This document shows positions 9,043-45,730 of a stretch of DNA of 64,000 nucleotides, piece after piece. The position numbers were made by a program, and so were the translations under genes. The stretch lies in IMG/VR virus record IMGVR_UViG_3300008117_000076, positions 32,740 through 96,739 of that record; one strand, written 5' to 3'. The notes under the pieces are model-generated. The model searched no databases, was not told the DNA's origin, and saw only the letters and a list, made by a program, of their open reading frames with translations. Position 1 is the first letter of the stretch. The number at the start of each line of letters is the position of its first letter. Source of the DNA: a virus.

Positions 9043-12000
9043 ATGGCCAGAATATATTCACAAGCTGCACAAACAGCAGCTTCAGGATCCCCTCTAACTG
9101 CATACAGTAGTCGTACTTCCGTAAGTGTTAGTGTTACGGCGGGTAAACGCTATGCGATATTCTGGTCAGCAATAATGAGTCATAGTGCGTTAACTTCTCG
9201 TGCGCGCGTTCGACTACAAAACGTTACTAATGGAGTAACATTACAGCAATTTGAATTTGAACCACAAGACTTAACGGACAGAATGAGTGCAGTGGATGTA
9301 AACGTATTTACTGCTTCATCTACTACAACAATTGAATTTGCTATACAATGGAGTGCATCCGCCGGTACTGCTACCATTTCTGACGCGTATATTAATGTGT
9401 TAGAATTAGATGATGCTGACGTTTCTTCATATGATAGCACACAAATTGCTACAACAAATGCCGTAGCTACTCCAATAGATTCTATTAATATTCCTGCTGG
9501 CGAATGGTTTGTGTTTGGATCGTGTAACGTCAATACTCCACGAACGGCACAAGCAGCGGATGATATGGTTGTACAATTGTCTGACGGCACAAACACCTAT
9601 ATGGTACGAACACAGTATTATGCAAAAGATACATTAGGAATAACACCATATTTTGCAATCGTAACGGCTTCTCTTGGTGCAACAACAACGTTTTCACTAG
9701 AACATAGCTCACCAAACGGACAAAATATTGTCAATCAATATCGAACATTATTAGCATTAGACAGGTCTAAATTTGCAGAAACGTATGCCGCGGTCAGTGA
9801 ATCTGCACAAATAGACTCTACAAGTGCCGGTGCACCAACCGCCATAATAACATATACGCCAACTATTGCAAACACAGGCAATCATTTAGTGGTGGGTACG
9901 TGGACGACAAAAATTAGCGCAACTAACTCATCAGTCTTTTCTCACTTTGGTACTTCAACTACGGAACCTGGTCAATATACAGCAACCCGCCAACCACTCC
10001 GTGAAGCATCCGTTAATAATATTGACGAATTTGCACACGGATGGACGGACGTTGAATCATTAACTGCGGGGTCGATTACAAAAGTCATCGCATGGCGTCC
10101 AGAAGCAAACGTAAATGCGACAATTTCTGATGCAGCCATTGTTATTATGGATTTGGATGGTGCCGTTGCTGCACCGAGTCCAACGCCAACTACAACACCA
10201 ACACCAACACCAACACCGTCTATTACTGTAACACCATCTATTACCACTACACCAAGTATAACTGTTACCCCTAGTATTACTACAACGCCTAGTATTACAA
10301 CAACGCCTAGTATTACCACCACCCCAAGTATTACGCCATCTATTACGACCACACCGTCTATTACTACTACACCGAGTGTTACTACAACGCCGAGTATTAC
10401 TAGAACTCCAAGTATTACCACTACGCCTTCTATTACCACTACACCATCTATTACTGTAACACCGTCTATCACAACAACGCCGTCAATTACTATTACGCCA
10501 AGTATAACACCATCTATTACAGTCACACCATCTATTACCACAACGCCGAGTATTACTACCACGCCGAGTATTACGCCAAGTATTACTACAACACCGTCTA
10601 TTACTACCACGCCTAGTATTACTACTACCCCAAGTGTCACACCTTCCATTACCACAACACCAAGTATTACGACTACTCCGAGTATTACTACAACACCCAG
10701 CGTTACTAATACACCGTCTATTACTAGAACTCCAAGTATTACTACTACGCCTTCTATTACCACTACTCCAAGTATTACGACTACCCCAAGTATTACTGTA
10801 ACGCCATCTATTACTAGAACGCCATCTATTACTACAACGCCTAGTATTACTACTACACCAAGTGTCACACCTTCCATTACCACTACACCATCTATTACCA
10901 CTACACCATCTATTACTACAACCCCAAGTATTACTACTACCCCAAGTATTACTACTACCCCAAGTATTACTACTACCCCAAGTATCACCACAACACCAAG
11001 TATTACACCCAGTATTACTACTACACCATCTATTACTACAACGCCAAGTATCACTACCACTCCTAGTGTCACGCCAAGTATTACCGTTACGCCATCTATT
11101 ACCACTACACCAAGTATTACTACTACTCCGTCAATTACAACTACTCCGAGTATTACCACAACACCGTCTATTACGGTAACGCCTTCTATTACCACTACGC
11201 CGTCAATTACCACTACTCCAAGTGTCACGCCATCTATTACCACCACGCCTAGTATTACTACTACACCTAGCGTCACGCCTAGTATTACTACTACGCCAAG
11301 CGTTACAACTACTCCAAGCGTTACGCCATCAATAACCACTACGCCGAGTATTACTACTACACCATCTGTTACCACTACGCCGAGTATTACTACTACCCCA
11401 AGTATTACTACTACGCCGTCAATTACTACCACACCAAGTATAACACCATCGGTTACAGTTACACCATCTATTACAGTCACACCATCTATTACAACAACAC
11501 CATCGGTCACTGCTACGCCATCGGTTACCGTTACGCCTTCTATTACTGCTACGCCATCTGTTACTAGAACACCTAGCGTTACACCATCAATAACGGTAAC
11601 ACCAAGTATAACAACTACGCCAAGTATTACTACTACGCCAAGTATCACGCCAAGTATTACTACTACACCATCTGTTACTACTACGCCGTCTATTACTACT
11701 ACTCCAAGTATTACGCCGTCGGTTACAATTACGCCAAGTATTACTACAACACCGAGTATCACACCTTCTATTACTACAACACCATCTGTTACGGCTACGC
11801 CAAGTATTACTACAACGCCATCTATCACCACAACTCCAAGTGTAACAGTTACACCAAGTATTACAGCTTCACCTGGTGTATCTGTAACTCCATCAATAAC
11901 TGTAACTCCATCAATAACCACAACACCTTCTATTACACCAAGTATTACAGTAAGTCCTAGTATTACAGCAACCCCTAGTGTTACTGTAACTCCTTCGGCT

Positions 12001-14115: not shown

Positions 14116-14121
14116 AATTCA

Positions 14122-14129
14122 TATTTATA
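14122..14129 (+). promoter_or_regulatory. candidate late promoter element TATTTATA
   Basis: The octamer lies in the 40-base gap after the first giant fibre gene and ends 27 bases before the GTG start at 14156. The spacing is identical to the elements at 380 and 1001. Confidence 0.5.
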
Positions 14130-14155
14130 TGAAATGTATAACGTGAGGTGTATTC

Positions 14156-14671
14156 GTGGCTGAGACAAGACTTTCTGGCGCATTAATAAGAACTGGAACG
14201 AATATCGGACCTGTGAACAAACTATCAGTTGGAGATGTGACCACACCAAGTGGTTCTCTTCATGTTGGCGGTACGACAGTTCTACAACAAATATTAGAAA
14301 AAAATACTATTGCTGCGACTGCGGCAACGGGGACAATTAATTTTAATGTATTATCACAAGGGGTGTTGTATTATACAACTAACTCATCGGGTAACTGGAC
14401 TCTAAACTTTACAGGTGACATTTCGACTACATTAAATGATATAATGTATATTGGGCAAAGTTTGAGTTTGGCGTTTTTAGTAACGAACGGTTCTCCCGCA
14501 TTTTATGTCACATCTCATACAATTGATGGTGCTTCTGTAACACCAAAATGGCAAGGTGGTGCTGTTCCCTCAGCGGGTAACACAAATTGTATTGATGTGT
14601 ATTCGTATGTTATAATAAAAACAGCAAATGCTACATTTACTGTGTTAGCATCAGTAATACCTTTCGTTTAA
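14156..14671 (+). CDS. virion protein with conserved beta-domain
   Basis: This 171-residue protein starts with GTG, supported by a GTGAGG ribosome site at 14143-14148 and the upstream promoter motif. The C-terminal 110 residues follow a pattern I know from many phage virion proteins: a YYTTNSSGNWTLNF strand, a central IDGASVTPKWQGG turn, IDVYSYVIIKT and the final FTVLASVIPF. The N terminus (GALIRTGTNIGPVNKL) resembles attachment segments of small fibre proteins. It probably forms a trimeric knob or decoration partner of the next giant fibre, which starts nine bases downstream. Confidence 0.6.
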   Translation: MAETRLSGALIRTGTNIGPVNKLSVGDVTTPSGSLHVGGTTVLQQILEKNTIAATAATGTINFNVLSQGVLYYTTNSSGNWTLNFTGDISTTLNDIMYIGQSLSLAFLVTNGSPAFYVTSHTIDGASVTPKWQGGAVPSAGNTNCIDVYSYVIIKTANATFTVLASVIPFV

Positions 14672-14680
14672 TAAGATTGT

Positions 14681-19330: not shown

Positions 19331-19363
19331 AAATAACGGTAACTTAAAATTTAGAGAATAAAT

Positions 19364-19795: not shown

Positions 19796-19800
19796 TAAAC

Positions 19801-19830: not shown

Positions 19831-19847
19831 TTTCTATTGACGTAAAC

Positions 19848-19886: not shown

Positions 19887-21206
19887 ATGACTACAAAAAA
19901 GAAAGTTGTTAAAAAGACTGTAAGAAATCAGAGTATAAAAAAGACTGCTGGACGAGTTAAAAAGAAAGTACCTACTATTTTCGTTCAAATTGCAGCATAC
20001 CGTGATCCAGAATTATTACACACTCTTCGCAGTTTATTACAAAACGCAGATCATCCAGAAAATTTGACTATTGCCATTGGTTGGCAGCATTCTCCCTATG
20101 AGAAGTGGGATAATTTAGATGAGTTCAAAGATGACACAAGATTTAAGATAATAGATATAGATTATCGTAAATCTAAAGGTGTTTGCTGGATGCGTGAAAA
20201 AATACAGAAATTGTATAATGGCGAAACTTATACACTACAACTAGATTCACATCATAGATTTACCGAACATTGGGATACGCAAGTAATAGAAATGTTAGAA
20301 GGATTGCGTAGTAAAGGACACACAAAACCACTGCTGAGTTCATACTTACCAGATTTTAATCCAGTAACAGGACCTGAAGGTGAATTACCTGCTCCGTGGA
20401 TTATGGAATTTGACAGATTTGGTCCAGAAGGGCCAGTACACTTCTTACCACATACAATAGACGATTGGAGAGAACTGACATCACCAGTTCCATCAAGATT
20501 CATGTCTGGTCATTTTATATTTGCTGACGGAATATTTGTTAAAGAAGTTCCGTATGACCCAAATTATTATTTTCACGGTGAAGAAATTGATTTATCTGTT
20601 CGTTCTTATATGGCGGGGTACGATCTATTCGCACCACACAGAACTATTGCTTGGCACGAATACTATAGAGAAGGAAAGAGTAAACATTGGGAGGACCATA
20701 CAAATTGGGCATCAGAAGATAGAATCTCACACGCATATCATCGCAAAATGTACGGTATTGAATCGAAGAACAGAAAATTAAAAGATAATGTACGAACACT
20801 TCAGGAATATGAAATGTATGCTGGATTGGAGTTTTCTACAAAACGTGCTCATACGATGACCATACAAAAAATACGCCCTCCAGTTTCTTTAGATGTAGAA
20901 TCCCATACACAAGGATTGGTTCCTTATCATAAAGTATGTATTGATGTGTATAAAGGATCATTACCAGAGAAGGATTATAATTTCTGGGTAGTTGCGTTTA
21001 CAAATAAAGATGGAATAGAATTTCATAGACATGATGCTGATGAAAATGAAATAAATATGGCTATGAGTGTACCTTATGAAGCAGATAAGTTTGTGCATAT
21101 ATGGAGAGCATTCTATTCTGATCAACCAGCTGATGGGTGGATCGTGTGGCCTCATAGTAAGAGTAATGGGTGGTGTGAAAGATTAACTGGTAAATTTGGA
21201 CGATAA
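19887..21206 (+). CDS. GT60-like GlcNAc-transferase (Skp1/mucin type)
   Basis: A Lys-rich N-terminal tail of about 35 residues precedes a domain of the Glycosyltransferase (GlcNAc) family (PF11397, CAZy GT60). Its hallmarks are FVQIAAYRDPELLHTLRSLL, GWQHSPYEKWDNLDEF, CWMREKIQKLYNGETY and the metal-binding LQLDSHHRF (D-x-H). The GEEIDLSVR and AWHEYYR motifs follow. Known members transfer GlcNAc from UDP-GlcNAc to hydroxyproline (Dictyostelium Skp1) or Thr (trypanosome mucins). ATG 19887 has a GAGGG site; the upstream GTG at 19857 is rejected because it overlaps the promoter motif. The C-terminal 130 residues end in WPHSKSNGWCERL, shared with the next gene. Substrate on the phage fibres is inferred. 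Confidence 0.8.
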   Translation: MTTKKKVVKKTVRNQSIKKTAGRVKKKVPTIFVQIAAYRDPELLHTLRSLLQNADHPENLTIAIGWQHSPYEKWDNLDEFKDDTRFKIIDIDYRKSKGVCWMREKIQKLYNGETYTLQLDSHHRFTEHWDTQVIEMLEGLRSKGHTKPLLSSYLPDFNPVTGPEGELPAPWIMEFDRFGPEGPVHFLPHTIDDWRELTSPVPSRFMSGHFIFADGIFVKEVPYDPNYYFHGEEIDLSVRSYMAGYDLFAPHRTIAWHEYYREGKSKHWEDHTNWASEDRISHAYHRKMYGIESKNRKLKDNVRTLQEYEMYAGLEFSTKRAHTMTIQKIRPPVSLDVESHTQGLVPYHKVCIDVYKGSLPEKDYNFWVVAFTNKDGIEFHRHDADENEINMAMSVPYEADKFVHIWRAFYSDQPADGWIVWPHSKSNGWCERLTGKFGR

Positions 21207-21207: not shown

Positions 21208-22449
21208 ATGAGAAAAAATAAAAATATTTTCGTTCAAATTGCAGCATACCGTGATCCAGAATTACTACCCACTATTCGTGATTGTATATCCAATGCGAAG
21301 AACCCGGAAAATCTTCGATTCTGTATTGCGTGGCAGCATTCTAACGAAGATGTCTGGGACAATTTAGATGAGTTTAAAAACGATTCACGATTTATAATTC
21401 TAGATATTCCACATCTACAGACAAAAGGAACGTGTTGGGCACGGTATCAAATCCAACAACATTGGAACGGAGAAGCATATACCCTACAATTAGATTCACA
21501 TCATCGTTTTGCTAAAAATTGGGATAGTATGCTAATTAAGATGGTCAAAGATTTACAAAAAGCAGGATATAAAAAACCATTATTGACTGCATATATGTCA
21601 AGTTATGAACCACATAACGATCCCACGGGACGAGCACCAGACCCGTGGTTCTTAACATTTGACAGATTCACTCCAGCTGGAGCAGTATTTTTTATACCCG
21701 CTGTTATTCCTGATTGGAAAAATCGTAAATTACCATATCCAAGTAGATTTTATTCCGCTCATTTTGGATTCACACTTGGACAATTTTGTAAAGAAGTTCC
21801 TCACGATCCGAACTACTTGTTTCACGGTGAGGAAATTTCTATTGCCGCACGAGCGTATACGTGGGGATATGATTTGTTTGCGGCACATAAACCTGTAGTG
21901 TGGCACGAATATTCACGAAATCACCGCCCTCGTAAATCGTGGGACGACATATCAGATTGGACTAATTGGGATAATCAATCGTTGGCACGTAACAGAAGAT
22001 TGTTAAACGTGGATAACGAGAATGACCCTAATGAAGATTTTGGAGAATTTGGATTTGGTACACAACGTACACTACAGCAGTACGAAGAATATGCGGGAAT
22101 ACAATTTTCTACAAGAAGTATACAAAAACATACGTTAGAACATCGTGAACCACCCAACCCGCCAAATCAACCATTCTTTAGAATTTTTAAACATTGTATT
22201 GATTTACCATATCAATATGTACCGTATAATGACTATGATTTTTGGGCGGTAGCATTTGAAGATGAATTTGGTAACGAGATATATAGACACGATGCTACAG
22301 AAGATGATATCATACAAATGAAGAATGATCCTGACGGATATTGTAAATTGTGGAGACAGTTTCACGCAACGGCAAAACCCGCCAGATGGATTGTTTGGCC
22401 ACATTCTAAATCACACGGATGGTGTGATCGATTGGTTGGAGATATCTAA
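21208..22449 (+). CDS. GT60-like GlcNAc-transferase, tandem paralogue
   Basis: This 413-residue protein is a close tandem paralogue of the preceding gene. The same motifs occur in order: FVQIAAYRDPELLPTIRDC, AWQHSNEDVWDNLDEF, CWARYQIQQHWNGEAY, LQLDSHHRF and FHGEEISIAARAYTWGYD. The C-terminal WPHSKSHGWCDRL segment is also shared. The ATG at 21208 follows the previous stop codon by one base; a TTG at 21196 would overlap the upstream gene and adds nothing conserved. Duplication with divergence suggests the two enzymes act on different acceptors or successive sites. The donor is predicted to be UDP-GlcNAc from the family, not proved. Confidence 0.8.
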   Translation: MRKNKNIFVQIAAYRDPELLPTIRDCISNAKNPENLRFCIAWQHSNEDVWDNLDEFKNDSRFIILDIPHLQTKGTCWARYQIQQHWNGEAYTLQLDSHHRFAKNWDSMLIKMVKDLQKAGYKKPLLTAYMSSYEPHNDPTGRAPDPWFLTFDRFTPAGAVFFIPAVIPDWKNRKLPYPSRFYSAHFGFTLGQFCKEVPHDPNYLFHGEEISIAARAYTWGYDLFAAHKPVVWHEYSRNHRPRKSWDDISDWTNWDNQSLARNRRLLNVDNENDPNEDFGEFGFGTQRTLQQYEEYAGIQFSTRSIQKHTLEHREPPNPPNQPFFRIFKHCIDLPYQYVPYNDYDFWAVAFEDEFGNEIYRHDATEDDIIQMKNDPDGYCKLWRQFHATAKPARWIVWPHSKSHGWCDRLVGDI

Positions 22450-25130: not shown

Positions 25131-25143
25131 AATGAGATAAATT

Positions 25144-29121: not shown

Positions 29122-29131
29122 GATAATAGAT

Positions 29132-29956: not shown

Positions 29957-29959
29957 AAT

Positions 29960-33982: not shown

Positions 33983-35743
33983 GTGGCTGTATTTTTTCCA
34001 TTCGGTATTCCTTCTACGGGTTCCTTCGCACAAACAGCTAGTTCTGCTTACGCATTAGTAAACAATCCATCTGTTGTAGCAGCACGTGCGTTGGTTGGTG
34101 TTATAGGACCAAAAGGTACTCCTGGAATTCAAGCTACAAGTTGTCCGCCTGGTTATTATAATGCGTTAACTACGGTCACGGATGCCTATGACACATACCC
34201 ATCAGTACCGCCGCATTCTGGTAGAGAAAATTATTTTTTATGTTATCCAATTCCCTCTCCATCCATAACCCCAACAAAAACACCGACAGCTACCCCGACG
34301 ATGACAGTAACACCGTCAGTAACAACTACGCCGTCGGTTACCCCAAGTGTAACTGTAACACCTTCTATAACAACTACACCATCAGTTACCAGAACGCCTT
34401 CTATCACTAGAACACCGAGTATCACAACTACGCCGTCTATTACGACCACACCTTCTGTTACTACTACGCCTAGTATTACTAGAACACCATCTATTACACC
34501 GTCTGTGACAGTAACACCTTCTATCACAACAACACCGTCAATAACGGTTACTCCAACTATAACATCTACACCTTCAATTACACCGTCAATAACTGTTACA
34601 CCAAGTTTAACACGAACACCATCTATTACCACAACACCATCTATTACCACAACACCGTCTATAACTCCAACTAGAACAGTAACTCCATCAATAACACAAA
34701 CAACAAATCAATCTGTAACACCAACGCCTACTCTTACACCTTCTATAACAACTACACCATCAATAACAGCAACTCCATCAATAACAGCAACTCCATCAAT
34801 AACGCCGTCGATAACAACTACTAGAACTGTTACCCCAACGGTAACGCCCTCAATAACAACAACCCCATCGGTAACTACGACACCAACTAATACACCAACT
34901 CCATCGGTAACACCTTCTGCTACCACAATTAATTATGTATTTTGTGAGTGTACTACAGTTCCAAGCTGTAATAATTATCCAGATCCTACTGGTGGTGGAT
35001 GTACAGCAGTTGCTGAAGCACTTACTCTCGGAACGTGTTGGCCGTGTACACAAGGAGTAGTAACGCCATCAGTAACACCGAGTGTCACTGCTACCCCTTC
35101 AATTACTAAAACACCAAGTACTACAGTAACTCCATCAATAACAACTACGCCAAGTATTACGCCAAGTATTACGACAACGCCGTCTATTACCACTACACCT
35201 TCTATTACTAGAACGCCAAGTATTACCGCTACGCCTTCTATTACTAGAACACCAAGTATTACTCCAAGTATTACCACTACGCCGTCTATTACTAGAACAC
35301 CAAGTATTACTCCAAGTATTACCACTACGCCGTCTATTACTAGAACACCAAGTATTACTAGAACGCCTTCTATTACACCATCTATTACGCCAAGTATTAC
35401 TACTACTCCAAGTATTACGCCGTCTGCAACAAAAACGCCTGCGCCCGTAACGCCTTCACCAGTAACACCTTCGCCGGTGACGCCTTCACCGGTGACGCCT
35501 TCGCCGGTGACGCCTTCACCAGTGACGCCTTCACCAGTAACACCTTCGCCAGTGACGCCTTCACCAGTAACACCTTCGCCAGTGACGCCTTCACCAGTAA
35601 CACCTTCGCCAGTGACGCCTTCACCAGTAACACCTTCGCCAGTGACGCCCTCGCTACAATACCATGTGTTGATGCTCAAGATTGTTCACCGTGTGCATAT
35701 TGCTGTGCTGGGCAATGTCAAAATACACCATGCCCACCCGTAG
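33983..35743 (+). CDS. third Thr/Pro/Ser-repeat fibre protein, frame broken near the C terminus
   Basis: Translation starts at GTG 33983 with a TAGGAGAA ribosome site. The N terminus ([20 protein letters not shown]) matches the two small adaptors, followed by [10 protein letters not shown]. Residues 92-313 are TPSITT-type repeats and residues 314-355 a Cys-rich insert ([10 protein letters not shown] to TCWPC). More TPSIT repeats follow, then VTPSP units. The frame then runs into a 30-residue low-quality tail and stops at 35743. One frame over, from 35650, the VTPSP pattern and a six-Cys tip continue to 35943. A single missing base near 35650 would restore a 651-residue protein. The break is a real mutation, a sequencing slip or recoding; the sequence cannot decide. 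Confidence 0.65.
34255..35650 (+). repeat. TPSIT then VTPSP coding repeats of the third fibre
   Basis: TPSIT-type units occupy about 34255-34920 and 35059-35420, split by the Cys-rich insert. From about 35436 the array changes to 15-base VTPSP units, some nearly identical at DNA level (alternating accagtaacaccttcgcc and accagtgacgccttcacc types). The higher DNA identity here favours slippage. Confidence 0.85.
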
Positions 35744-35943
35744 CACCAACGCCTTCACCGGTAACACCTTCACCGGTAACACCTTCACCAGAAACACCTT
35801 CACCAACACCATCACCAGCAACATGTACTTTTGGAGCTACTCAATGTGTGGGCCAAGATTTGTACACTTGTAATGGTACAGAATATGTATTATCGTGTAC
35901 AAATTATATTGATTGCGGCGGATCGAACAGTTCGTGTGAGTAA
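35650..35943 (+). other. out-of-frame C-terminal extension of the third fibre
   Basis: Read in frame 1, this stretch encodes [18 protein letters not shown], more VTPSP/ETPSP units, and a final six-Cys domain (35824-35940) whose spacing, 6-7-8-5-6, is identical to that at 19211-19330. It stops at TAA 35941-35943. It has no good start codon of its own, so it is the displaced end of the gene at 33983. A -1 shift, equal to one missing base around 35648-35656, joins the two frames. Confidence 0.7.
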
Positions 35944-36037
35944 AATCAATTGGTGAGGTAAAAACGTAAATATGTATTATAGTACAGTACGAATATACTA
36001 AATTGTAATACTGAAAAATAATTAAGAGGAAATGGTT

Positions 36038-37009
36038 ATGAAAACAATATTGGTTACGGGAGCCGGTGGGTTTATTGCCGGACATATAGTAAAGAAATTA
36101 GCAGAAATATATACAGTACGAGCAATTGATAAAAAGCCGTTTGATAAATGGTATCAAATTACCGAGTCAGCAGAAAACATCGTCGGAGACTTAACGGATT
36201 ACGATGTTGCTCTAAACGCCACGCAAGGTATTGATGAAGTCTATCATTTAGCGTGTGATATGGGTGGAATGGGATTTATCGAACACAATAAGACATTGTG
36301 TATGTTATCCATTATTCCAGACACCAATACATTAAAAGCAGCACACCTAAACGGAGCAAAGAAGTTTCTCTTCGCATCGACCGCTTGTGTCTATCCTGTG
36401 TATAAACAAAACACGACAGAACCAGAACCTTTAATTGAAGGTACAGAATACCCAGCCGATCCCGAAGATGGGTATGGTTGGGAAAAGCTGTTTATGGAAC
36501 GCATGTGTCGTCATTTCACCGAAGATTTTGGAATTGAAACCCGTATTGTCCGATACCACAATGTCTACGGTCCAGTAGGTACGTGGCAAGGTGGACGAGA
36601 AAAAGCACCGGCCGCGCTCTGTAGAAAAGTCGCACATGCTTTACACACTAACTCTGATACGATTGAAGTGTGGGGTGATGGTGAGCAAACACGGTCGTTT
36701 TTGTATATTGATGATGCAGTCGAAGGAACAATTCGTGTAATGGATAGTCCACATCAATCGGCATTTAATATTGGATCAGACCGAATGGTGTCCGTTAATG
36801 AATTAATTACGATTATTGAAAATGCAGCTGGTGTCAAACTCCAACGTAAACATATTGAAGGACCGTTGGGAGTACGTGGAAGAAACTCACATAATGACAA
36901 AGTAAAGGCATTGTTAAATTGGGAACCTGCTATTACATTAGAAGAAGGAATGACTCGTACATTTAACTGGATACGGGAACAATATGGATTATATCATAGT
37001 ACCAACTAG
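36038..37009 (+). CDS. GDP-mannose 3,5-epimerase-like NAD-dependent epimerase
   Basis: The 323-residue protein is an extended SDR with TGAGGFIAGHIVKKL, LACDMGGMGFIEHN, STACVYPVYK, the catalytic YGWEK (Y-x3-K), YGPVGTWQGGREKAPAALC, EVWGDGEQTRSFLYIDD and GVRGRNSHND. These match GDP-D-mannose 3,5-epimerase closely; that enzyme makes GDP-L-galactose and GDP-L-gulose. ATG 36038 is chosen over 36032 because the AGAGG site at 36025-36029 is 8 bases from 36038 and only 2 from 36032. It opens the second sugar block and overlaps the large glycosyltransferase gene by 26 bases. The exact product should be confirmed biochemically. Confidence 0.75.
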   Translation: MKTILVTGAGGFIAGHIVKKLAEIYTVRAIDKKPFDKWYQITESAENIVGDLTDYDVALNATQGIDEVYHLACDMGGMGFIEHNKTLCMLSIIPDTNTLKAAHLNGAKKFLFASTACVYPVYKQNTTEPEPLIEGTEYPADPEDGYGWEKLFMERMCRHFTEDFGIETRIVRYHNVYGPVGTWQGGREKAPAALCRKVAHALHTNSDTIEVWGDGEQTRSFLYIDDAVEGTIRVMDSPHQSAFNIGSDRMVSVNELITIIENAAGVKLQRKHIEGPLGVRGRNSHNDKVKALLNWEPAITLEEGMTRTFNWIREQYGLYHSTN

Positions 37010-39755
37010 TAATAGTGAGTATCAATCGTGGCAGTGTCGTTTATTAAACTGGTCACGGAAGAAAGTAAAGCAATCAGGTAAACTTGTGTTATTACGATGT
37101 GCAGATCCGATGGGTAGAAATAGACCGTTGGATGAATACACAGACACGGATGTAGTAGTAATAGATTTACCAGATTATGCTACAGAATGGGAAAATCTAG
37201 AATCAGAATCAAAACGTGGTGAAAAATATTGGTGGGGAGCTATACCAAATAAATTCATGTCGATAAAATGGTTATGCGATAACTCTTCTTTTAAAGACGA
37301 AGATAATTTATTATTTCTAGACCCAGATATGATATTTTTACATCCAGTAGAATTTGTTCCTAAATATAACGAAATTATAGCACAAAGATTTATTCACTAC
37401 GCACCGTTACAGAATTGGAAAATTGAAAATGATAGAGACGGGTTTGGTGTGATGTATCCATTTTGTATTAAGTTTGGTACATTAAAAAAAATAATAGACG
37501 ATTATATTACCAGTTCAGAGCAAATTAAACGTGAAACGAAACGATGGGAATCTGAAATGTGGGGATTGGATTACGCAGTTAAAAAGAACAATTTAAAAAT
37601 TCAATACGTAGAGGACTTTGGATTCTGTACGGCATGGAAAGAAAATGACAGTAATGAAGTCAGTCTTATCGCACATTTCCCGAATGAAATATTTGATGCG
37701 AATAATAATTCTTTATTTTTCAAACAAGATTACACACACAATCAGAATATGCAAATAGACGTAAATAGAGCAAGAAACAAATTAGATGAACTTTTGTTAT
37801 CTAATATTGCACAAGAAAGAACGGATTATCTGTACCATTTAAAATGGAATTTTTCTAATATATTTAACAATTACACTGGTAAAACCGGATATATTATTTT
37901 AAAACCGTGGCCGGGTGGATTTAACAACATACGAATGTCATTAGAACTGGCGGTTTGTATAGCATATTTAACGAATAAGACATTAGTACTACCTCCAAAG
38001 TATAATATGTATTTGCTAAAAGATACGTTTGGGCTAGAAGATTTTTTTGATATGTCTGATTTAGGAATAAAAACAATGTCTTTTTTTGATTTCTGTAGAC
38101 TGAAAAATATTACTCCTACGTTCGAAGCAGTTGCAGAAATTAGTAAAACCATAACAGAACCAGAATTTCACGTTTTAAATTTTACAGAATCACTACCAGA
38201 CGAATCATTTAAACATGGACGTTCTGTAACTGATATGATTGAACTACTTGGTCACAATGAGTGTTTATTTTTTGATGGTAAATTGTTAGGAAATTTTTAT
38301 CAAACCATATATACGACATTTGACGTAGAACTTAAAAAATTAATAGCACGGCACGTTCATTACACTCCTAAATTAATGGAATTGGGTTGGCGGGCAATAG
38401 AAGTGTTGGGAGACAGAAAATACTATGCAATCCACATAAGAAGAAATGATTTTCAGTATAAGCATTTGTTCATTACAGCGGAGCAAATCTATGATAATAT
38501 CAAAGATATAATACCAGATGGTTCCACATTGTATATTGCAACAGACCATACCGATAAATCATTTTTTGACAAACTTGCCCAACACTATCAGTTACACTAT
38601 TACGAAGATATTGCACATTTAGCAAAACTAGAAAATGTGCACTATAATTTTATTCCGATAATAGAACAACTCATATGTACAAGATCTATAAAGTTTATAG
38701 GTAACGATTATTCCACTCTTTCCTCGTATATATACAGACTTCGAGGATATATGAAAGATATAGAAGATAAAAACTTTTATATCAATACTAGTACGTTTAA
38801 TCAAGATGAGCAATGTGATTCTACTGAAACAAAAAGATTCATAGGTAATTGGGCACGAGAATTTAAAGACGCCTGGGATTTTAAACCTAAAAAAATATTT
38901 GTTTCTGTAGCTAGCTATTGCGACCGCCAGTTATTAACTACATTAAGAAATTTATATGAAACGGCACAAGACTCATCACGAATTATGGTAGGTGTCCATC
39001 TTCAAGATAACGAAGAATATCATAAAGAATTACTTAATGAAAATTTTCCAAACATGAAAATATTATTTACTCCAGATGAAGATTCTCTGGGAGTTGTTTG
39101 GGCGCGTGAAAGAATAAAGCAAGAATTAATAACTGATGAGGATTTCTTTTTGCAGATTGACGCACACAGTAGATTTAAACAAAATTGGGATGGTATACTA
39201 ATAAATCAATATAGAAGTATGCCAAACAAAAAAGTGGTATTCTCTACATATCCAAATGGATTCGAACTTACCGATACGGAAAAAAACTTTTTATCTATAA
39301 AAACTAATGCCCCATTAGTTATTAGTGGACATATGGATGTTGAAAATGTTAATCCAATAGATAACAGATTAGTTACAAAAAATTTAGTAGCAATGGATAA
39401 GTACGAAATATTCGACAACAAATGGATAGGTGCAGGATTTATATTTGCACCAATCGAATGGACTGGAGATATACAAGTACCTATGCAAATAAAATCTAAA
39501 GGTGAAGAAGAAGCACAAACGTTCTTATCTTATTTAAAAGGATGGGATATAAAATTACCCGCTGAGGCGACAGTATGGCATAATTATAATATACATGACT
39601 TGGACGGCACCGTATACAGAAAAACAAATCATAATGAAATAACAGACAAGTCTGTTGAAATTATAAATGATATACTTTTTAATACTTCCAATTCATATTC
39701 TCGTTCATTAGAAGAATTGGAGGATTACTTGTCAATTAAATTTAGACGGATCTAA
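36984..39755 (+). CDS. three-domain glycosyltransferase: HPAT/SGT-like, O-FucT-like, GT60-like
   Basis: Residues 1-285 resemble plant/algal hydroxyproline O-arabinosyltransferase and peptidyl-serine galactosyltransferase domains (GT95/GT96): SNSEYQSWQCRLLNWSRK, KYWWGAIPNKFMSIKWL and LLFLDPDMIFLHPVEF as the D-x-D strand. Residues 290-600 resemble GDP-fucose protein O-fucosyltransferases: PWPGGFNNIRMSLELAVCIA, YYAIHIRRNDFQ and FIGNDYSTLSSYIYRLRG. Residues 633-923 are a GT60-like domain: KIFVSVASYCDRQLLTTL, VVWARERIKQEL and FLQIDAHSRF. The start at 36984 lies within the epimerase gene. All three folds are linked in eukaryotes to glycosylation of Hyp, Ser or Thr in proteins. Domain calls are by motif memory; the first is the least certain. 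Confidence 0.7.
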   Translation: MDYIIVPTSNSEYQSWQCRLLNWSRKKVKQSGKLVLLRCADPMGRNRPLDEYTDTDVVVIDLPDYATEWENLESESKRGEKYWWGAIPNKFMSIKWLCDNSSFKDEDNLLFLDPDMIFLHPVEFVPKYNEIIAQRFIHYAPLQNWKIENDRDGFGVMYPFCIKFGTLKKIIDDYITSSEQIKRETKRWESEMWGLDYAVKKNNLKIQYVEDFGFCTAWKENDSNEVSLIAHFPNEIFDANNNSLFFKQDYTHNQNMQIDVNRARNKLDELLLSNIAQERTDYLYHLKWNFSNIFNNYTGKTGYIILKPWPGGFNNIRMSLELAVCIAYLTNKTLVLPPKYNMYLLKDTFGLEDFFDMSDLGIKTMSFFDFCRLKNITPTFEAVAEISKTITEPEFHVLNFTESLPDESFKHGRSVTDMIELLGHNECLFFDGKLLGNFYQTIYTTFDVELKKLIARHVHYTPKLMELGWRAIEVLGDRKYYAIHIRRNDFQYKHLFITAEQIYDNIKDIIPDGSTLYIATDHTDKSFFDKLAQHYQLHYYEDIAHLAKLENVHYNFIPIIEQLICTRSIKFIGNDYSTLSSYIYRLRGYMKDIEDKNFYINTSTFNQDEQCDSTETKRFIGNWAREFKDAWDFKPKKIFVSVASYCDRQLLTTLRNLYETAQDSSRIMVGVHLQDNEEYHKELLNENFPNMKILFTPDEDSLGVVWARERIKQELITDEDFFLQIDAHSRFKQNWDGILINQYRSMPNKKVVFSTYPNGFELTDTEKNFLSIKTNAPLVISGHMDVENVNPIDNRLVTKNLVAMDKYEIFDNKWIGAGFIFAPIEWTGDIQVPMQIKSKGEEEAQTFLSYLKGWDIKLPAEATVWHNYNIHDLDGTVYRKTNHNEITDKSVEIINDILFNTSNSYSRSLEELEDYLSIKFRRI

Positions 39756-39757
39756 AA

Positions 39758-40681
39758 ATGGAAAAAATCTTTATAGCAATTGCAAGTTTTCGTGATTATG
39801 AACTACCACATACCATACTAGACCTAATTAGTAAAGCCGAAAATCCTCAAAGATTAGTATTTTCTGTAGTGCACCAATTTGATGAAGAGCCAGAGACGAA
39901 TGAAAACTGCATCAATCATTTACTCGGCAAGTATCCAATACATTTAGAATTGCACCATTGGACAGAATCAAGAGGTGGTTGTTGGGCAAGAAATATAGCA
40001 CAGAAATATTATGCAAATGAAAGATATGCATTACAAATAGATTCACACACTCGGGTTATAAAACATTGGGACTCCGTGTTAATACGAAATATAGAAAATT
40101 TAAGAAACATATCACCAAAACCTATAATTTCATATTTATCTCCATCATACTCTAGAAATGACGAATATGGTATAGACTATTTGTTTAGTAATATATTTGA
40201 TATGGATAAAATACAAATACCTAAAATAAAAAATATAACTAGTCAATACTGGATTGAATACGGTGGATATGAAAATGAACAGCGTACTGGATATAAAAAT
40301 GTAAGAGTCCCCGTACTATATGGTGGGTTTATATTTTCAGACGGCCAATGGGTAGTTGAAGTGGAACAAGATCCATTACATTATTATACTGGTGAAGAAT
40401 TTGCTTTAGCCGTAAGATCGTATACAAAAGGATATGATATATACACGCCCGATAGAATAGTATCGTGGCATAGAGCACATAACGAACCAAACAAAAAACA
40501 CTTTACCGTACTACCACCGGAATTTGGACAGTATAGACATAAAGTTGCGATGGAACGACTTCGAAGGTTATTTGAAGGTGGTGATCTGGGTAAATACGGT
40601 CTGGGTACACATCGAACTCTAGATGAGTACGAGCAATTTTCAGGAATAGATTTCAAAAATAAACAAATTAAGACTCTGTAA
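39758..40681 (+). CDS. GT60-like GlcNAc-transferase, fourth copy
   Basis: The 307-residue protein has the family motifs KIFIAIASFRDYELPHTI, HQFDEEPETNENC, GCWARNIAQKYYANERY, LQIDSHTRV (D-x-H) and TGEEFALAVRSYTKGYD. The last 30 residues (GLGTHRTLDEYEQFSGI) match the LQ-YE-YAGI segment also present in the proteins at 19887 and 21208. It lacks the extra C-terminal domain of those two. It follows the three-domain enzyme by two bases. Confidence 0.8.
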   Translation: MEKIFIAIASFRDYELPHTILDLISKAENPQRLVFSVVHQFDEEPETNENCINHLLGKYPIHLELHHWTESRGGCWARNIAQKYYANERYALQIDSHTRVIKHWDSVLIRNIENLRNISPKPIISYLSPSYSRNDEYGIDYLFSNIFDMDKIQIPKIKNITSQYWIEYGGYENEQRTGYKNVRVPVLYGGFIFSDGQWVVEVEQDPLHYYTGEEFALAVRSYTKGYDIYTPDRIVSWHRAHNEPNKKHFTVLPPEFGQYRHKVAMERLRRLFEGGDLGKYGLGTHRTLDEYEQFSGIDFKNKQIKTL

Positions 40682-40693
40682 CATAAAACGGTT

Positions 40694-42253
40694 ATGTTTA
40701 ATTTATCAATATACACAGGACACAATGCGTCATTTACGATAAGTCGAGATGATGAAATTCTAGAAGTTGTGGAATTGGAAAGATGGCTAAACGTTAAAAA
40801 TATAAGTTTAACGTGGTATCTACCTACCACTCATAATCCTATACATGCTGTAAAAGAAATACTTCTATACTTCAAAATAAAATATGGTGCAGACAAATAC
40901 CAAAATCTAATATGTAACCCTACAGATTTGGAAGTACTCACGGGTGGATATTGGTCTGCACACGGAAGTGTTTTAGATATTTTTAACGCAAAAAATTTAA
41001 TAGAGATGGGTCACCAAGAAGGACACGCGTATAATGCATTTTATCAAACTAATTTAAAAGAAGCAACAATTATTAGTTTTGATGGTGGTGGTAATGATGG
41101 GTGTTTTAATTTTTATAAAGCAACTAGACAGAATGGAGTCACATTATATAGAACGGAACCTGATTATAATATCGGAGAAAAATATGCACAAATTGGATTT
41201 TATTGTAGTTCATTGAGCAAACAAGATAGATTTCAAGGATATCTGGTACATTCGGGTAAGTTGATGGGATTGTCAGCATACGGTAAAATTTTACACAATA
41301 ACATAAATAATTTTTTAGAATACTACAAAGGACATCATTCTACTTACGAGGACAAGTATAACAATTATAAAAAATTAGGTTATCCAGATGAGTTAACTGG
41401 CCAGTTAGAAGTGGATGTAGTCAGAACTTCTCAATATGCGTTTGAGCAATTGTTTGAAAAGTTATCATACAAAGATATCATAGGTAGTGATGACAAATTA
41501 TGTTTAACTGGTGGATGTGCTTTAAATGTACTGAATAACACACAAGTAAATAAATTAACAAAGACGCATGTAACGCCAAATCCAGACGATAGAGGATTGA
41601 GTTTAGGATTTATGTTAGGGTTTTTAAAGCCATCGGATGCATTTGATTCCACTTATATCGGACCTGAAGTTTGGGATAGACATTTATTACATGAGTACGT
41701 AAACAAATATAATGCAACCGAAGTAGATTTCACAAAATTAGCAGAAGATTTAATTTCTGGAAAAATTATTGGAATTGTTCGTGGTCGTTCTGAACACGGG
41801 GCTAGGGCATTGGGAAACAGAAGTATTCTTTGCATGCCAACTGTAGGTATGAAAGATATACTAAATGCAAAAGTCAAACATAGAGAATATTATCGTCCGT
41901 TTGCACCCGTAACTAGATTGGAAGATGCAAATACTTATTTTGATTGGGAAGGTGAAGCACGTTGGATGACATTTAGCCCAAGAGTAAAAACGGAATACCG
42001 ATCAATTTTACCATCTGTCACACATATCGATAACACGGCTAGATTGCAAACAGTAACAGAAATGCAAAATTCTTTTCTGTATCACCTATTAGGTGAAGTA
42101 AAACGACTTTCAGGAGTCGGTGTATTAATAAATACATCCTTCAATATCGCAGGAAAACCAATTCTGAATACATACAGAGATGCTGTCTGGATGCTAGAAA
42201 ATGTGGAAATGGATGGGTTGATTTTGGAAAATTATTATATAAAAAAGGATTAA
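40694..42253 (+). CDS. NodU/TobZ-type carbamoyltransferase
   Basis: The 519-residue protein matches this family in length and domain order. An N-terminal ASKHA-like part has IYTGHNASFTISRDDEI, the metal-binding HQEGHAYNAFY, IISFDGGGNDG and KLMGLSAYGKI. Then LCLTGGCALNVLNN and the C-terminal YrdC-like part follow, with GRSEHGARALGNRSIL, HREYYRPFAPV and NTSFNIAGKPI. The enzymes use carbamoyl phosphate and ATP to carbamoylate a hydroxyl, in NodU the O6 of GlcNAc of Nod factors. In this block a GlcNAc-containing glycan is a plausible acceptor. Confidence 0.88.
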   Translation: MFNLSIYTGHNASFTISRDDEILEVVELERWLNVKNISLTWYLPTTHNPIHAVKEILLYFKIKYGADKYQNLICNPTDLEVLTGGYWSAHGSVLDIFNAKNLIEMGHQEGHAYNAFYQTNLKEATIISFDGGGNDGCFNFYKATRQNGVTLYRTEPDYNIGEKYAQIGFYCSSLSKQDRFQGYLVHSGKLMGLSAYGKILHNNINNFLEYYKGHHSTYEDKYNNYKKLGYPDELTGQLEVDVVRTSQYAFEQLFEKLSYKDIIGSDDKLCLTGGCALNVLNNTQVNKLTKTHVTPNPDDRGLSLGFMLGFLKPSDAFDSTYIGPEVWDRHLLHEYVNKYNATEVDFTKLAEDLISGKIIGIVRGRSEHGARALGNRSILCMPTVGMKDILNAKVKHREYYRPFAPVTRLEDANTYFDWEGEARWMTFSPRVKTEYRSILPSVTHIDNTARLQTVTEMQNSFLYHLLGEVKRLSGVGVLINTSFNIAGKPILNTYRDAVWMLENVEMDGLILENYYIKKD

Positions 42254-42254
42254 T

Positions 42255-43037
42255 ATGACTAAAATTATAGTACTAAACCAATCAACGTGGCATTTTGAAT
42301 ATAATGCAATAGATGCGTTAGCAAAAAGTACATGGGCAAGAGTAAAACACCCAGACGTAACAGTTATTCATTATTACGGAGGTTATGATTTAGAAGATAA
42401 ACCGTATTCACATTTAAGTGGAACGCCCGCCAAGGGTTCTGCGATTATGTATGATAACCACGGTAATAATATTCTTGTGTGTGGGGTACAAGATGTAGTA
42501 AGCAATCCTCTTACAGATCCACGTAATCAAAAACTTATCATAGCATATGAGTGGTGTCTTAATAATTTAGAATTTGATTATATAGTTCGAATTTGTAATA
42601 CGACTTACCTTGATATTAAAAAGATGCACAAATTTCTAGATTCACTGGAAAGAAAAGATAAACAATATGATGGTGCACGAAATATGTACAACAATGAGTA
42701 TTATTTTTGCGGAGGAAGTTTTAATTATCTATCAAAAGATTGTGTACAACAATTAGTAAACAATAAAGAAGAATATTTATCTTTACCGTATCCGTTATCT
42801 ATGGAAGATCTTGGTGTGGGAGTAATACTATTTAATAAATTAAATTATGCCGTCTGGGACGAAGTACATCAAGATGTAAAAACATCCGCTACAAGTTTAG
42901 GCGATAACGGTGGCCCGTTAGTAGATTACGTCGATGACATAATAGCAAATGAAAAGTATTTTGCGTATAGATTTAGAATCAGTAGTACGGAAGAGTACAT
43001 ACAATTTCACAATAAGGTTTTACGAAAATATGTTTAA
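42255..43037 (+). CDS. Fringe/GT31-like glycosyltransferase (putative)
   Basis: The 260-residue protein has YIVRICNTTYLDIKKMHKFL, YYFCGGSFNYLSKDCVQQL and SMEDLGVGVILF. The G-G-S-x-x-x-L-S and E-D-x-x-x-G arrangement recalls GT31 enzymes such as Fringe and beta-1,3-galactosyltransferases. The usual D-D-D metal motif is replaced around CNTTYLD, so activity is uncertain. It lies between the two carbamoyltransferase genes and overlaps the second by 8 bases. Family assignment is tentative. Confidence 0.45.
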   Translation: MTKIIVLNQSTWHFEYNAIDALAKSTWARVKHPDVTVIHYYGGYDLEDKPYSHLSGTPAKGSAIMYDNHGNNILVCGVQDVVSNPLTDPRNQKLIIAYEWCLNNLEFDYIVRICNTTYLDIKKMHKFLDSLERKDKQYDGARNMYNNEYYFCGGSFNYLSKDCVQQLVNNKEEYLSLPYPLSMEDLGVGVILFNKLNYAVWDEVHQDVKTSATSLGDNGGPLVDYVDDIIANEKYFAYRFRISSTEEYIQFHNKVLRKYV

Positions 43038-44586
43038 TATAGGAATGTTTGGTTCTCATAATGCAACAATAGCTATATCAAAAGATGACAAACTTTTAGA
43101 AGTAGTGGAAGTAGAAAGATTTACTTCAATAAAAAATTGCGCATTATGGTTTTACTATAACATAAGAGAGCCATATAATATAGCAGTGATTCACGAAATA
43201 AAAAACTACTTTAATCAAAAATATGGAGTAACGGAATATGAAAGCGTAATATATAATTCCGTGCACCAAGAATACTATAAAATATTTCCCGCTAAAAAAT
43301 ACACATGGTTACCACACCACACAGCTCACGCATACTCTGGATTATACCAATCCCCATATAGTAATGCGTTAATAGTATCAGCTGATGGTGGTTCAGATGA
43401 AGGATTTTTCAATGTGTTTATAGGTGATAAGCGCGCGGGTATTACAAAAATATATTCTGGTAAAAGAGATTTAGCTGTTCCATATGGATTGGTTGCACAT
43501 TATATTGAAGATATACGAAAGGAAGAACCGTTTTGGGGAAACTTGGTGTACGCCGGAAAAATTATGGGGTTTGCAAACTACGGAAACGCCACGGAAGAAT
43601 TCGTCAATAAATTACATACTATATATAATAGCGGGGATGATGGGAAAATACCGGAAACGGTGACTACAATAAGGAAGGTTCTTGACATTCCAGAGGAATT
43701 TAGATTCACTGGCCAAGACGCTAAAGATTTAGCTGCTTCAAATCAATTTGTCTTTGAGCAACTTTTTGAAGAAGAGATAACGCCATTTTTAAAGGAATAC
43801 CCTTCATTACCCTTAATTTTAGTTGGTGGGTGTGGGCTTAATATATTAAATAATACCAAACTTGCTAGAACTAGAAACGTATTTGTTCCACCTAATCCAA
43901 ATGATTGTGGGTTGGCGGTTGGATTATTAGCATCTACTATCAAACCAACAGAACCAATTGATTGTACATATGCTGGGCCCGTAGTATGGGATAGACATGA
44001 ATTAATAAGAATTGCACACGAACGATCGGCACAAGTACTTGACATCGCTAAATTAGCAGACTATATTATATCTGGTAAAATTGTAGGTGTGGTACGAGAT
44101 AGATGTGAACATGGTCCAAGAGCACTAGGAAATAGAAGTATATTGTGTAATCCTGCTATTACTGGAATAAAAGATATATTGAATGCTAAAGTAAAAGGTA
44201 GAGAATATTATCGTCCCTTCGCTCCCGTGGTCCGTCTAGAAGATGTTAACAAATATTTTGAATGGAATACTGAAAGCCGTTGGATGAGTTTTTGTCCAAG
44301 AGTAAAAGATGAATATAAAAATAAACTAGAAGCAATAGTGCACGTGGATGGTACAGCGAGAGTACAAACTGTAACTAAAAAACAAAATGAATTTTTATAT
44401 AATTTATTAACAGAAATGCATAATAAAACTGGAATAGGTGTATTATTAAATACTTCGTTCAATGTGGCAGGAAAACCAATTTTGAATACGTATAAAGAAG
44501 CACTCACAGTTCTAGATAGTAAAGAGATGGACGCCGTTATATTGGAAGATTATATTATACAAAAAAACAGAGGATCACAGTTATGA
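43030..44586 (+). CDS. second NodU/TobZ-type carbamoyltransferase
   Basis: The 518-residue paralogue of the gene at 40694 has FGSHNATIAISKDDKLL, LPHHTAHAYSGLYQS, LIVSADGGSDEG, KIMGFANYGNA, LILVGGCGLNILNN, DRCEHGPRALGNRSIL, GREYYRPFAPVV and NTSFNVAGKPI. I chose ATG 43030, where homology begins; an upstream ATG at 42949 lies inside the previous gene. Both copies keep the catalytic His and Gly-rich motifs, so both look active. Divergence between them suggests different acceptors or positions. Confidence 0.87.
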   Translation: MFNIGMFGSHNATIAISKDDKLLEVVEVERFTSIKNCALWFYYNIREPYNIAVIHEIKNYFNQKYGVTEYESVIYNSVHQEYYKIFPAKKYTWLPHHTAHAYSGLYQSPYSNALIVSADGGSDEGFFNVFIGDKRAGITKIYSGKRDLAVPYGLVAHYIEDIRKEEPFWGNLVYAGKIMGFANYGNATEEFVNKLHTIYNSGDDGKIPETVTTIRKVLDIPEEFRFTGQDAKDLAASNQFVFEQLFEEEITPFLKEYPSLPLILVGGCGLNILNNTKLARTRNVFVPPNPNDCGLAVGLLASTIKPTEPIDCTYAGPVVWDRHELIRIAHERSAQVLDIAKLADYIISGKIVGVVRDRCEHGPRALGNRSILCNPAITGIKDILNAKVKGREYYRPFAPVVRLEDVNKYFEWNTESRWMSFCPRVKDEYKNKLEAIVHVDGTARVQTVTKKQNEFLYNLLTEMHNKTGIGVLLNTSFNVAGKPILNTYKEALTVLDSKEMDAVILEDYIIQKNRGSQL

Positions 44587-45113
44587 ACAACCAATCAGAA
44601 TTTTTTGCTCGACATGGGTATGCATACATTAAAGACGTACTGACACACCAGCAGTGCGACGACTTTGCTCAGTTGATGTATGACATGAAAGCTACAGATC
44701 GTTTAGTTTATGAAGGTGGTGACCAAAAGTTTTATGATAATTCGTATGGTGGAAACCATCCAGAGTTTGAGGCCGCATTGCGATCATTAACAGACAGATT
44801 GCAAGACGAGTTGGGAGTTAAAATGACTCCCGCTAATTCGTTTGGACGCATTTATTATAATGGTGGAACTTTACACAAACACGTTGATCGTCAAGGTCTT
44901 GATTACACTATGTCTATTACGCTATTTAATAGTTTAGATAAGGAATGGCCATTGTGGTGTATTGATAAGACAAATAATCAAGTTCCTTTGAATATTGGTC
45001 GAGGTGATGGTGGTATGATGTTAGGAACAACAATGACACATTGGCGTGATGATTTAATTTGCGAACCACACCAGCATGTTGTTCAACTATTCATGCATTG
45101 GAGTTTTGCATGA
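44583..45113 (+). CDS. 2OG-Fe(II) oxygenase, prolyl-hydroxylase-like
   Basis: The 176-residue protein has the double-stranded beta-helix pattern of 2-oxoglutarate/iron dioxygenases. FGRIYYNGGTLHKHVDR contains the H-x-D pair (H100, D102). The late segment GDGGMMLGTTMTHWRDDL supplies a distal His (H153) and Arg (R155) for 2-oxoglutarate. The short N-terminal HGYAYIKDVLTHQQCDDF is typical of prolyl-4-hydroxylase-like phage enzymes. Hydroxylation of Pro in the Thr-Pro-Ser shafts would create acceptors for the GT60- and HPAT-like enzymes, but the substrate is not proved. It overlaps both neighbours by four bases. Confidence 0.72.
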   Translation: MNNQSEFFARHGYAYIKDVLTHQQCDDFAQLMYDMKATDRLVYEGGDQKFYDNSYGGNHPEFEAALRSLTDRLQDELGVKMTPANSFGRIYYNGGTLHKHVDRQGLDYTMSITLFNSLDKEWPLWCIDKTNNQVPLNIGRGDGGMMLGTTMTHWRDDLICEPHQHVVQLFMHWSFA

Positions 45114-45730
45114 ACGAAAAACTTAAACACGAATTTGAGATTATAATACACGCTGTACATGCTATGAATCCAACGGCAAATGGGTGGGGATGCATAGAAA
45201 CTCGAAGTGGTGGTGGTAGTACATTAGAATCTACAAAACCTTTAAGAAATGCATTGCCAAAATTATTTGATACATTTAATATCAAATCAATTCTAGACAT
45301 ACCGTGTGGTGACTTTCATTGGATGAAAGAAGTCAATTTGACGGGAATCGAATACGTCGGAGCGGACATTGCCGAAGTATTCGTCAATGACAACAGACTA
45401 AATTATCCACAGCATGAATTTCTACATTTAGATATTACAGAAGATCCTTTACCTAAAAAGGATTTAGTTATAGTGCGAGATTGTTTTATACATCTTTCTT
45501 ATGAGAATATAAAAAAGTCCCTAGAGAACATAAAAAATAGTGGAAGTACATACTTGCTAACCAGTAGTAGAAGGAATCTTATAGAAAATAAAGATATTTT
45601 AGACTCTGATTTTAGACAAATTAATATGGAAATAAATCCATTTTATTTAAACCCTATATATTGTATTGATGAAGATACGTCTGAACCATATCGATCTATG
45701 ATATTAATCAAAATAGATGATTTAAAATAA
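45110..45730 (+). CDS. class I SAM-dependent methyltransferase
   Basis: The 206-residue protein has the SAM motif SILDIPCGDFHWMKEV, YVGADIAEVFVND as motif II and DLVIVRDCFIHLSYENIKKS as motif IV. The order fits class I enzymes that methylate small molecules or sugars. I chose ATG 45110 because it overlaps the oxygenase stop (ATGA); an upstream ATG at 45059 lies in the oxygenase gene. It ends the second sugar block. Confidence 0.65.
   Translation: MNEKLKHEFEIIIHAVHAMNPTANGWGCIETRSGGGSTLESTKPLRNALPKLFDTFNIKSILDIPCGDFHWMKEVNLTGIEYVGADIAEVFVNDNRLNYPQHEFLHLDITEDPLPKKDLVIVRDCFIHLSYENIKKSLENIKNSGSTYLLTSSRRNLIENKDILDSDFRQINMEINPFYLNPIYCIDEDTSEPYRSMILIKIDDLK

Follow-up and report, generated by a model that had tools for sequence, protein, structure and literature searches.

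The stretch of DNA analysed here (the window) is the final 64 kb of a 96,739-bp virus record in IMG/VR, a linear fragment derived from an environmental sample (IMGVR_UViG_3300008117_000076, positions 32,740 to 96,739), and the presence of terminase, portal, major head, tape-measure, baseplate-hub, single-stranded DNA-binding and helicase genes in this record points to a large tailed phage as its source. Gene and array calls in the window identified three fibre genes carrying long arrays rich in Thr, Pro and Ser (T/P/S), interleaved with approximately 21 sugar-related genes, all on the + strand, an arrangement that an earlier note on this DNA had described with about 18 sugar genes. The sugar genes encode four glycosyltransferase (GT) domains of family GT60, and we consider it likely that fibre and sugar genes together form a phage-encoded system for mucin-type O-glycosylation of the phage's own fibre shafts.

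The two long arrays, in the fibre genes starting at 9043 and 14681, each contain 196 TPS[IV]T units and consist of 41-43% Thr, 18% Pro and 18% Ser, and are thus long tandem repeats rich in Thr, Ser and Pro, as in a mucin-type acceptor domain. The units are encoded by 105 and 90 different 15-mers, respectively, drawing on each of the four Thr codons and on Ser codons of both families (AGY and TCN), indicating conservation of the repeat as a protein sequence rather than a DNA artefact. Because the units were chosen by motif, their zero entropy at codon positions 1 and 2 is to some extent circular, but the count of distinct 15-mers is unaffected by this choice. An assembly artefact as the source of the arrays was set aside, as gene 9043 has a constant length in several other contigs (1690 amino acids (aa), 171 non-overlapping units). 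The arrays of gene 14681 span 1148 and 142 aa and those of gene 33983 span 236 and 209 aa. The latter gene is frameshifted near 35660 in the present record, where its open frame ends at 35743; intact frames of 671, 681 and 691 aa are found in the near-identical contigs L011, L014 and L015, and relatives differ in the number of PSPVT units (16, 18 or 20); the frameshift (35650-35943) may reflect genuine variation or a misassembly. Outside the window, immediately to its left, there is a fourth such gene, encoding 666 aa (L009:5293-7293). Three of the four array proteins (14681, 33983 and L009:5293-7293) have in common a short C-terminal domain that is rich in Cys and ends in CGGSxxxC, and the C-terminus of the 9043 protein is different.

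The four GT60 domains (PF11397; open frames 19857, 21196, 39758 and the C-terminus of 36984) scored 109-242 bits against a cut-off of 21. Asp119-Ser120-His121 and His256 are invariant across 15 GT60 sequences and resemble the Asp-X-His plus His metal site of the polypeptide N-acetylgalactosaminyltransferases (ppGalNAc-Ts). Searching PDB sequences with the GT60 profile gave no significant match. The AlphaFold (AF2) model of GT60a had a mean predicted local distance difference test score (pLDDT) of 86, and all 50 PDB matches listed for this model were mucin-type ppGalNAc-Ts of GT-A fold (E 2e-11 to 4e-8, 11-20% identity). Since the template modelling (TM) scores were modest (0.39-0.49 by query length) and several of the long alignments had a large root-mean-square deviation, the likeness should be taken to hold for the catalytic domain only; the C-terminal ~95 residues are modelled as about six strands and a helix, unlike the 12-strand trefoil of a lectin domain. 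According to a review, GT60 enzymes are polypeptide alpha-N-acetylglucosamine (GlcNAc)-transferases that start protist mucin-type O-glycans and are kin of the ppGalNAc-Ts without the ricin-like domain (PMC8724618), and one member, Gnt1, acts on a hydroxyproline of Skp1 (PMC6939170). Direct transfer to Thr/Ser by the phage enzymes would be the simpler reading here.

A profile built from an alignment of 15 GT60 proteins detected at least 592 loci in IMG/VR, of which the best 80 were fetched and reduced to 60 non-redundant loci by clustering the GT60 proteins at 85% identity. When an array was defined as an open reading frame in which T/P/S make up at least 50% over a span of 80 residues and T+P at least 30%, array genes were present in the flanks of 49 of the 80 loci (50 without the T+P rule). 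The earlier note had named sugar blocks commonly lacking a T/P/S fibre as an observation that would speak against decorated shafts, yet the opposite was found: 35 of the 60 non-redundant loci had an array gene within 10 kb, compared to 3 of 50 control phage loci chosen by an arbitrary 17-mer, where the arrays belonged to one gene family. In 21 of the 60 loci, an array gene on the same strand ended no more than 300 bp upstream of GT60. With regard to gene order, the array was upstream-adjacent in 20 of 58 loci (permutation mean 3.8, maximum 12 in 2000), and slots -1 and -2 upstream of GT60 held 20 and 11 array genes. Arrays were found elsewhere in the record for 8 of 25 flank-negative clusters (at least three pattern matches), compared to one single match in the 50 control records. 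Sixteen of the fetched GT60 records measure 100 kb or more; 13 of them have a clear array, and the remaining three give weaker evidence (short Thr-Pro runs in L131, a T/P-rich stretch running off the contig end in L133 and a Pro/Ser-rich gene in L164). In the reverse direction, the search for co-occurrence proposed in the earlier note gave GT60 in 19 of 50 records chosen by a TPSIT DNA pattern, several being the same phage and about ten being others, and in 0 of 50 control records.

In the tree built from the 60 GT60 proteins, the label for adjacency has to change 11 times, and of these changes at least six are forced by well-supported branches; as these changes are spread over the tree, the adjacency is not one inherited accident. 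In other phages, the motifs of the GT60-adjacent arrays vary ([19 protein letters not shown]), with a shared composition (33% Thr, 18% Pro and 17% Ser, from 23 GT60 loci). Pairing of T/P/S arrays and GT60 is widespread among uncultivated phages and not unique to the phage of the window. One such locus has a 3568-aa open frame with 354 TPS[IVLA]T units (L101:2-10708) and a tandem GT60 pair about 1.1 kb downstream.

The commonest partner of GT60 was the HtrL_YibB protein of the window, relatives of which occurred in 51 of the 60 GT60 loci and in none of the 50 control records; moreover, all 17 YibB-positive records among the 50 TPSIT-pattern records were also GT60-positive. Other window genes were less recurrent in the 60 loci (22325 in 15, 29132 in 11, 29960 in 8 and the carbamoyltransferases in 7), and the oxygenase, HPAT and O-FucT had no relatives there. 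The core module therefore appears to consist of an array fibre, one or two GT60 and a YibB protein, accompanied by changing finishing enzymes. The fuller set, with a fusion of HPAT and O-FucT, synthesis of GDP-fucose and GDP-L-galactose, and the oxygenase, looks particular to the phage of the window. In IMG/VR, the oxygenase and the full-length 923-aa fusion had relatives in near-identical strains only, plus one distant O-FucT, the fusion gene being present in five other contigs of up to 166.6 kb (100% identity, best segment). A PDB sequence search with the fusion protein gave no match, and of its domains the O-FucT scored 99 bits and the HPAT a weak 27.6 bits (cut-off 23.9). These two domains, the four GT60, the synthases of GDP-fucose and GDP-galactose type, the methyltransferases and the carbamoyltransferases had all been named in the earlier note, and the matches collected in Table 1 agree with it.

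Table 1. Genes of the array and sugar blocks and their immediate neighbours, in window positions.
Feature	Position	Strand	Evidence and remarks
Tail-fibre assembly chaperone-like gene	8685..9029	+	PHROG tail fibre assembly, best E 7e-20; directly before first array gene
Fibre gene 1, 1690 aa	9043..14115	+	~370-aa N-terminal region, 1221-aa TPSIT array (10150-13812), ~100-aa C-terminal domain
Small protein between fibre genes	14156..14671	+	PHROG 5906
Fibre gene 2, 1549 aa	14681..19330	+	TPSIT array 14732-18175, PSPVT array 18806-19231, Cys-rich C-terminus
GT60 a, predicted polypeptide alpha-N-acetylhexosamine (HexNAc)-transferase	19887..21206	+	PF11397 222 bits; likely start 19887 (open frame 19857)
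GT60 b, tandem paralogue	21208..22449	+	PF11397 242 bits, invariant DSH motif (open frame 21196)
Predicted GT-B-like transferase	22451..23410	+	No Pfam family; GT-B reading by eye; relatives in 15/60 GT60 loci
GDP-L-fucose synthase	23412..24329	+	PDB 4e5y GDP-L-fucose synthase, E 8e-86, 291 bits
GT-A-like 24333 (by eye), methyltransferase 25144, GT-like 25740 (by eye), FkbM methyltransferase 26561	24333..27235	+	
GT10 fucosyltransferase	27239..28120	+	PF00852 59.5 bits
GT4-like 28117, GT2-like 29132, FkbM-like 29960	28117..30700	+	Weak Pfam matches
HtrL_YibB domain (N) and second domain (C), 618 aa	30713..32569	+	PF09612 63.9 bits
Fibre gene 3	33983..35943	+	TPSIT arrays 34235-34942 and 35042-35668, PSPVT array, Cys-rich C-terminus
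GDP-mannose 3,5-epimerase (GDP-L-galactose)	36032..37009	+	PDB 2c59, E 5e-91, 308 bits
923-aa three-domain enzyme	36984..39755	+	HPAT (4-223), O-FucT (303-590), GT60 (694-872)
GT60 c	39758..40681	+	PF11397 169 bits
Carbamoyltransferase 1	40694..42253	+	PF16861 190 bits
Predicted GT-A-like protein	42255..43037	+	By eye; no family
Carbamoyltransferase 2	43030..44586	+	PF16861 208 bits
Putative 2-oxoglutarate (2OG)/Fe(II)-type oxygenase	44583..45113	+	HxD...H motif; not recognisable as prolyl hydroxylase
Methyltransferase	45110..45730	+	Weak Pfam methyltransferase matches

The PHROG 5906 family of the small protein between the fibre genes also makes up the C-terminal part of the product of an upstream 874-aa gene (L009:2666-5290), and a DUF6065 protein (217.5 bits) is encoded at 45752-46822, directly 3' of the second sugar block.

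Cultured phages carry the pairing as well. ORF334 of Xanthomonas phage XacN1 is a GT60 (260.8 bits) that is 43% identical to GT60a of the window over 90% of its length, ORF350 is a 654-aa T/P/S-array gene adjoining a gene annotated as structural protein, and ORF325, which comes after a baseplate-wedge gene, has T/P-rich stretches. Proteomic analysis detected at least two glycoproteins in XacN1 virions, for which the authors suggested phage transferases, according to the accessible part of the report (PMC5852040). GT60 is also encoded by the Stenotrophomonas phages RAS14 and CM1. Hence, the suggestion that no described phage has this combination does not hold for GT60 and arrays, which are common in uncultivated phages and both present in XacN1; only the fuller set looks particular.

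Starting from the genes and their arrangement, the repeated pairing of GT60 with arrays and the fold prediction, all of which are directly established, we propose that the phage of the window and hundreds of distant relatives probably use enzymes of their own to make tail fibres that are mucin-like and coated with sugar. In the host cytoplasm, GT60 would take HexNAc (probably alpha-GlcNAc, as in protists) from a nucleotide sugar and attach it directly to Thr/Ser residues of the arrays, and the sugar would then be extended by HtrL_YibB-type and other transferases. Fucose and L-galactose may be added by way of the GDP-fucose synthase and GDP-mannose epimerase of the phage, methyl and carbamoyl groups would cap the glycan, and the dense glycans could stiffen and shield the otherwise disordered shafts. 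Several points weigh against this proposal. The acceptor, the sugar identity, the order in which the steps occur and the function within the virion, as well as the glycan and the enzyme activities in the phage of the window, are predictions from sequence, and the array proteins are placed in the virion by their position and neighbours only. The 80 loci are the ones closest to the GT60 of the window, and the control loci are shorter on average. Furthermore, 17 of the 60 GT60 records are without an array, most of these being fragments, and some array-bearing records, including the 270-kb G037, are without GT60. In XacN1, a second transferase (ORF328) is encoded, and the glycosylated proteins are unnamed in the accessible text of PMC5852040.

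Among the alternatives, the sugar blocks could serve to alter the host surface polysaccharide (lipopolysaccharide (LPS) or capsule) and so keep out competing phages, or could produce a small molecule, with the arrays as unrelated neighbours. This is how similar sugar clusters of jumbo phages and cyanophages are read in the accessible part of PMC7824862, but we consider it unlikely here, as no clear membrane protein (flippase, polymerase or lipid-carrier transferase) was found in the sugar blocks of the window, and as it leaves unexplained both the ppGalNAc-T-like fold and the repeated position of GT60 after T/P/S-array genes. The arrays could also be bare and GT60 modify another virion protein, both having been brought together because tail-fibre loci are hot spots of cassette exchange. 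Tail-fibre regions are generally variable, and the GT60 loci without an array are in line with such hitch-hiking; however, the tie is specific to T/P/S genes in the two slots upstream of GT60, and some bacterial GT60 genes are also found near Pro/Thr-rich array genes, making this explanation improbable as well.

In an extensin-like route, an oxygenase would hydroxylate Pro of the arrays, and HPAT and GT60 would glycosylate the hydroxyproline. Some GT60 enzymes do act on hydroxyproline (Skp1 Gnt1; PMC6939170), the HPAT domain scores above its Pfam cut-off, and protein 44583 with its HxD...H motif is located within the block. However, 44583, which the earlier note had read as prolyl-hydroxylase-like, matched no prolyl hydroxylase significantly in Pfam or PDB, and an alignment of 44583 with five cyanophage proteins gave no significant PDB match; a single-sequence model was too poor for use (pLDDT 37.5). 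In addition, relatives of oxygenase, HPAT and O-FucT are absent from the 60 GT60 loci, and the window arrays, with their TPSIT/TPSPVT motifs, contain no Ser-(Pro)3-5 or SPPP extensin motifs. As no prolyl hydroxylase is recognisable, direct Thr/Ser glycosylation fits better, and we find the extensin-like route quite improbable. Thus, of the idea that the enzymes decorate the shafts with eukaryote-like O-glycans, the decoration itself is most likely, given the GT60-array pairing and the ppGalNAc-T-like model, whereas the hydroxyproline part gains no support. The metal motif of 44583 is shared with a family found in 120 phage records, mostly of Synechococcus phages, that is often annotated 'ferrochelatase'; this family (44583-45113 of the window; L332, L334-L337) resembles a small 2OG/Fe(II)-type oxygenase, and the annotation may be wrong.

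Glycosylation of hypermodified phage DNA by the transferases is very improbable: although phage transferases are known to glycosylate DNA (as cited in the accessible part of PMC12619734), 36984 has a weak TET-associated GT match (21.8 bits, below cut-off) and a Mom-like DNA-modification gene is found elsewhere in the phage, the sugar genes are located among fibre genes and not replication genes, and no thymidylate synthase/hydroxymethylase or TET/JBP was found in five records of the phage (fragments; the TET search had no positive control). The Mom-like domain (PF25680, 90.8 bits) is encoded left of the window together with a polynucleotide-kinase/HAD-like N-terminus (L010:4309-5781), and the phage probably modifies its own DNA too.

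In bacteria, an automatic screen of 80 GT60 loci found a Pro/Thr-rich array gene nearby in 21 loci, and within 400 bp in seven, a few of these probably being spurious frames in GC-rich DNA; matches shorter than about 130 aa in high-GC bacteria, probably spurious antisense frames, were not counted as evidence. A VgrG/spike-like gene was present in 18 of the 80 loci. In Burkholderiales, GT60 genes have a VgrG-type spike gene at a distance of about 4 kb (L298; similarly L285, L289, L292, L296, L300-L304 and L306), and several of these spikes end in Pro/Thr-rich arrays. The one examined (L298:15075-17564; Phage_GPD, gp5 C-terminal and OB domains) ends in a Thr-Pro array and is adjoined by IcmF of type VI secretion. 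Large Pro/Thr-rich genes also lie just upstream of GT60 in tail-like (injection-system-like) clusters (L273:6385-9993 and L288:6384-10001 of Sphingomonas bins, L311 and L318), two of them with an Rv2525c-like glycoside-hydrolase domain. This bacterial tie to spike and array genes is suggestive. We tentatively raise the possibility, for which the odds seem to us somewhat below even, of a general prokaryotic mucin-type O-glycosylation, in which GT60, often with HtrL_YibB, would act on T/P/S arrays of contractile-tail machines (phage fibres, type VI VgrG spikes and extracellular injection systems), and from which the eukaryotic GT60 and GT27 mucin enzymes may derive or with which they may share a root.

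Protein glycosylation is known from very few phages, and mucin-type O-glycosylation is usually thought to be eukaryotic. If the proposal is true for hundreds of phages, it would explain a large group of 'auxiliary' sugar genes that are at present interpreted as modifying capsule or DNA, give a function to the HtrL_YibB domains in phages, and change the view of adsorption, shielding and immune recognition of these phages. The cultured phages XacN1 and RAS14 make it testable now, and a cytoplasmic GT60 with its paired substrates could be useful for making mucin-like glycoproteins in bacteria.

Phage protein glycosylation and GT60 chemistry are known separately; the occurrence of GT60 with giant T/P/S arrays in phages appears to be new, as the accessible literature (subscription papers mostly outside it) gave no description of phage GT60, glycosylated Thr-rich fibres or PF11397/YibB in phages. 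The jumbo phage and cyanophage clusters of PMC7824862 combine transferases, carbamoyltransferases, 2OG oxygenases and methyltransferases as in the window, but are interpreted in its accessible part as capsule/LPS decoration or secondary metabolism, without a tie to array fibres. Phage transferases have been proposed or shown to glycosylate virion proteins in mycobacteriophages (Freeman 2023, as cited in the accessible part of PMC12619734) and in XacN1 (accessible part of PMC5852040), which shares both GT60 and T/P/S-array genes with the phage of the window. In contrast, the mycobacteriophage glycans are located on the C-termini of capsid and tail-tube subunits and not on long T/P/S arrays, and that part of PMC12619734 mentions no GT60. 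Among solved folds, the GT27 ppGalNAc-Ts are closest to the GT60a model, with a similar Asp-X-His and distal His motif, although they belong to a different CAZy family, are 11-20% identical and have a ricin-type lectin domain that is not evident in GT60a. The protist GT60 enzymes (of Trypanosoma cruzi mucins, Dictyostelium mucin domains and Skp1 Gnt1) belong to the same Pfam family as the phage domains, which score well above its cut-off, and the acceptors in T. cruzi and Dictyostelium are Thr/Ser-rich and mucin-type (PMC8724618), like the phage arrays. Unlike those of protists, the phage GT60 genes, whose sugar and acceptor are predicted, have a C-terminal domain of their own and stand in an operon-like arrangement with their putative substrate.

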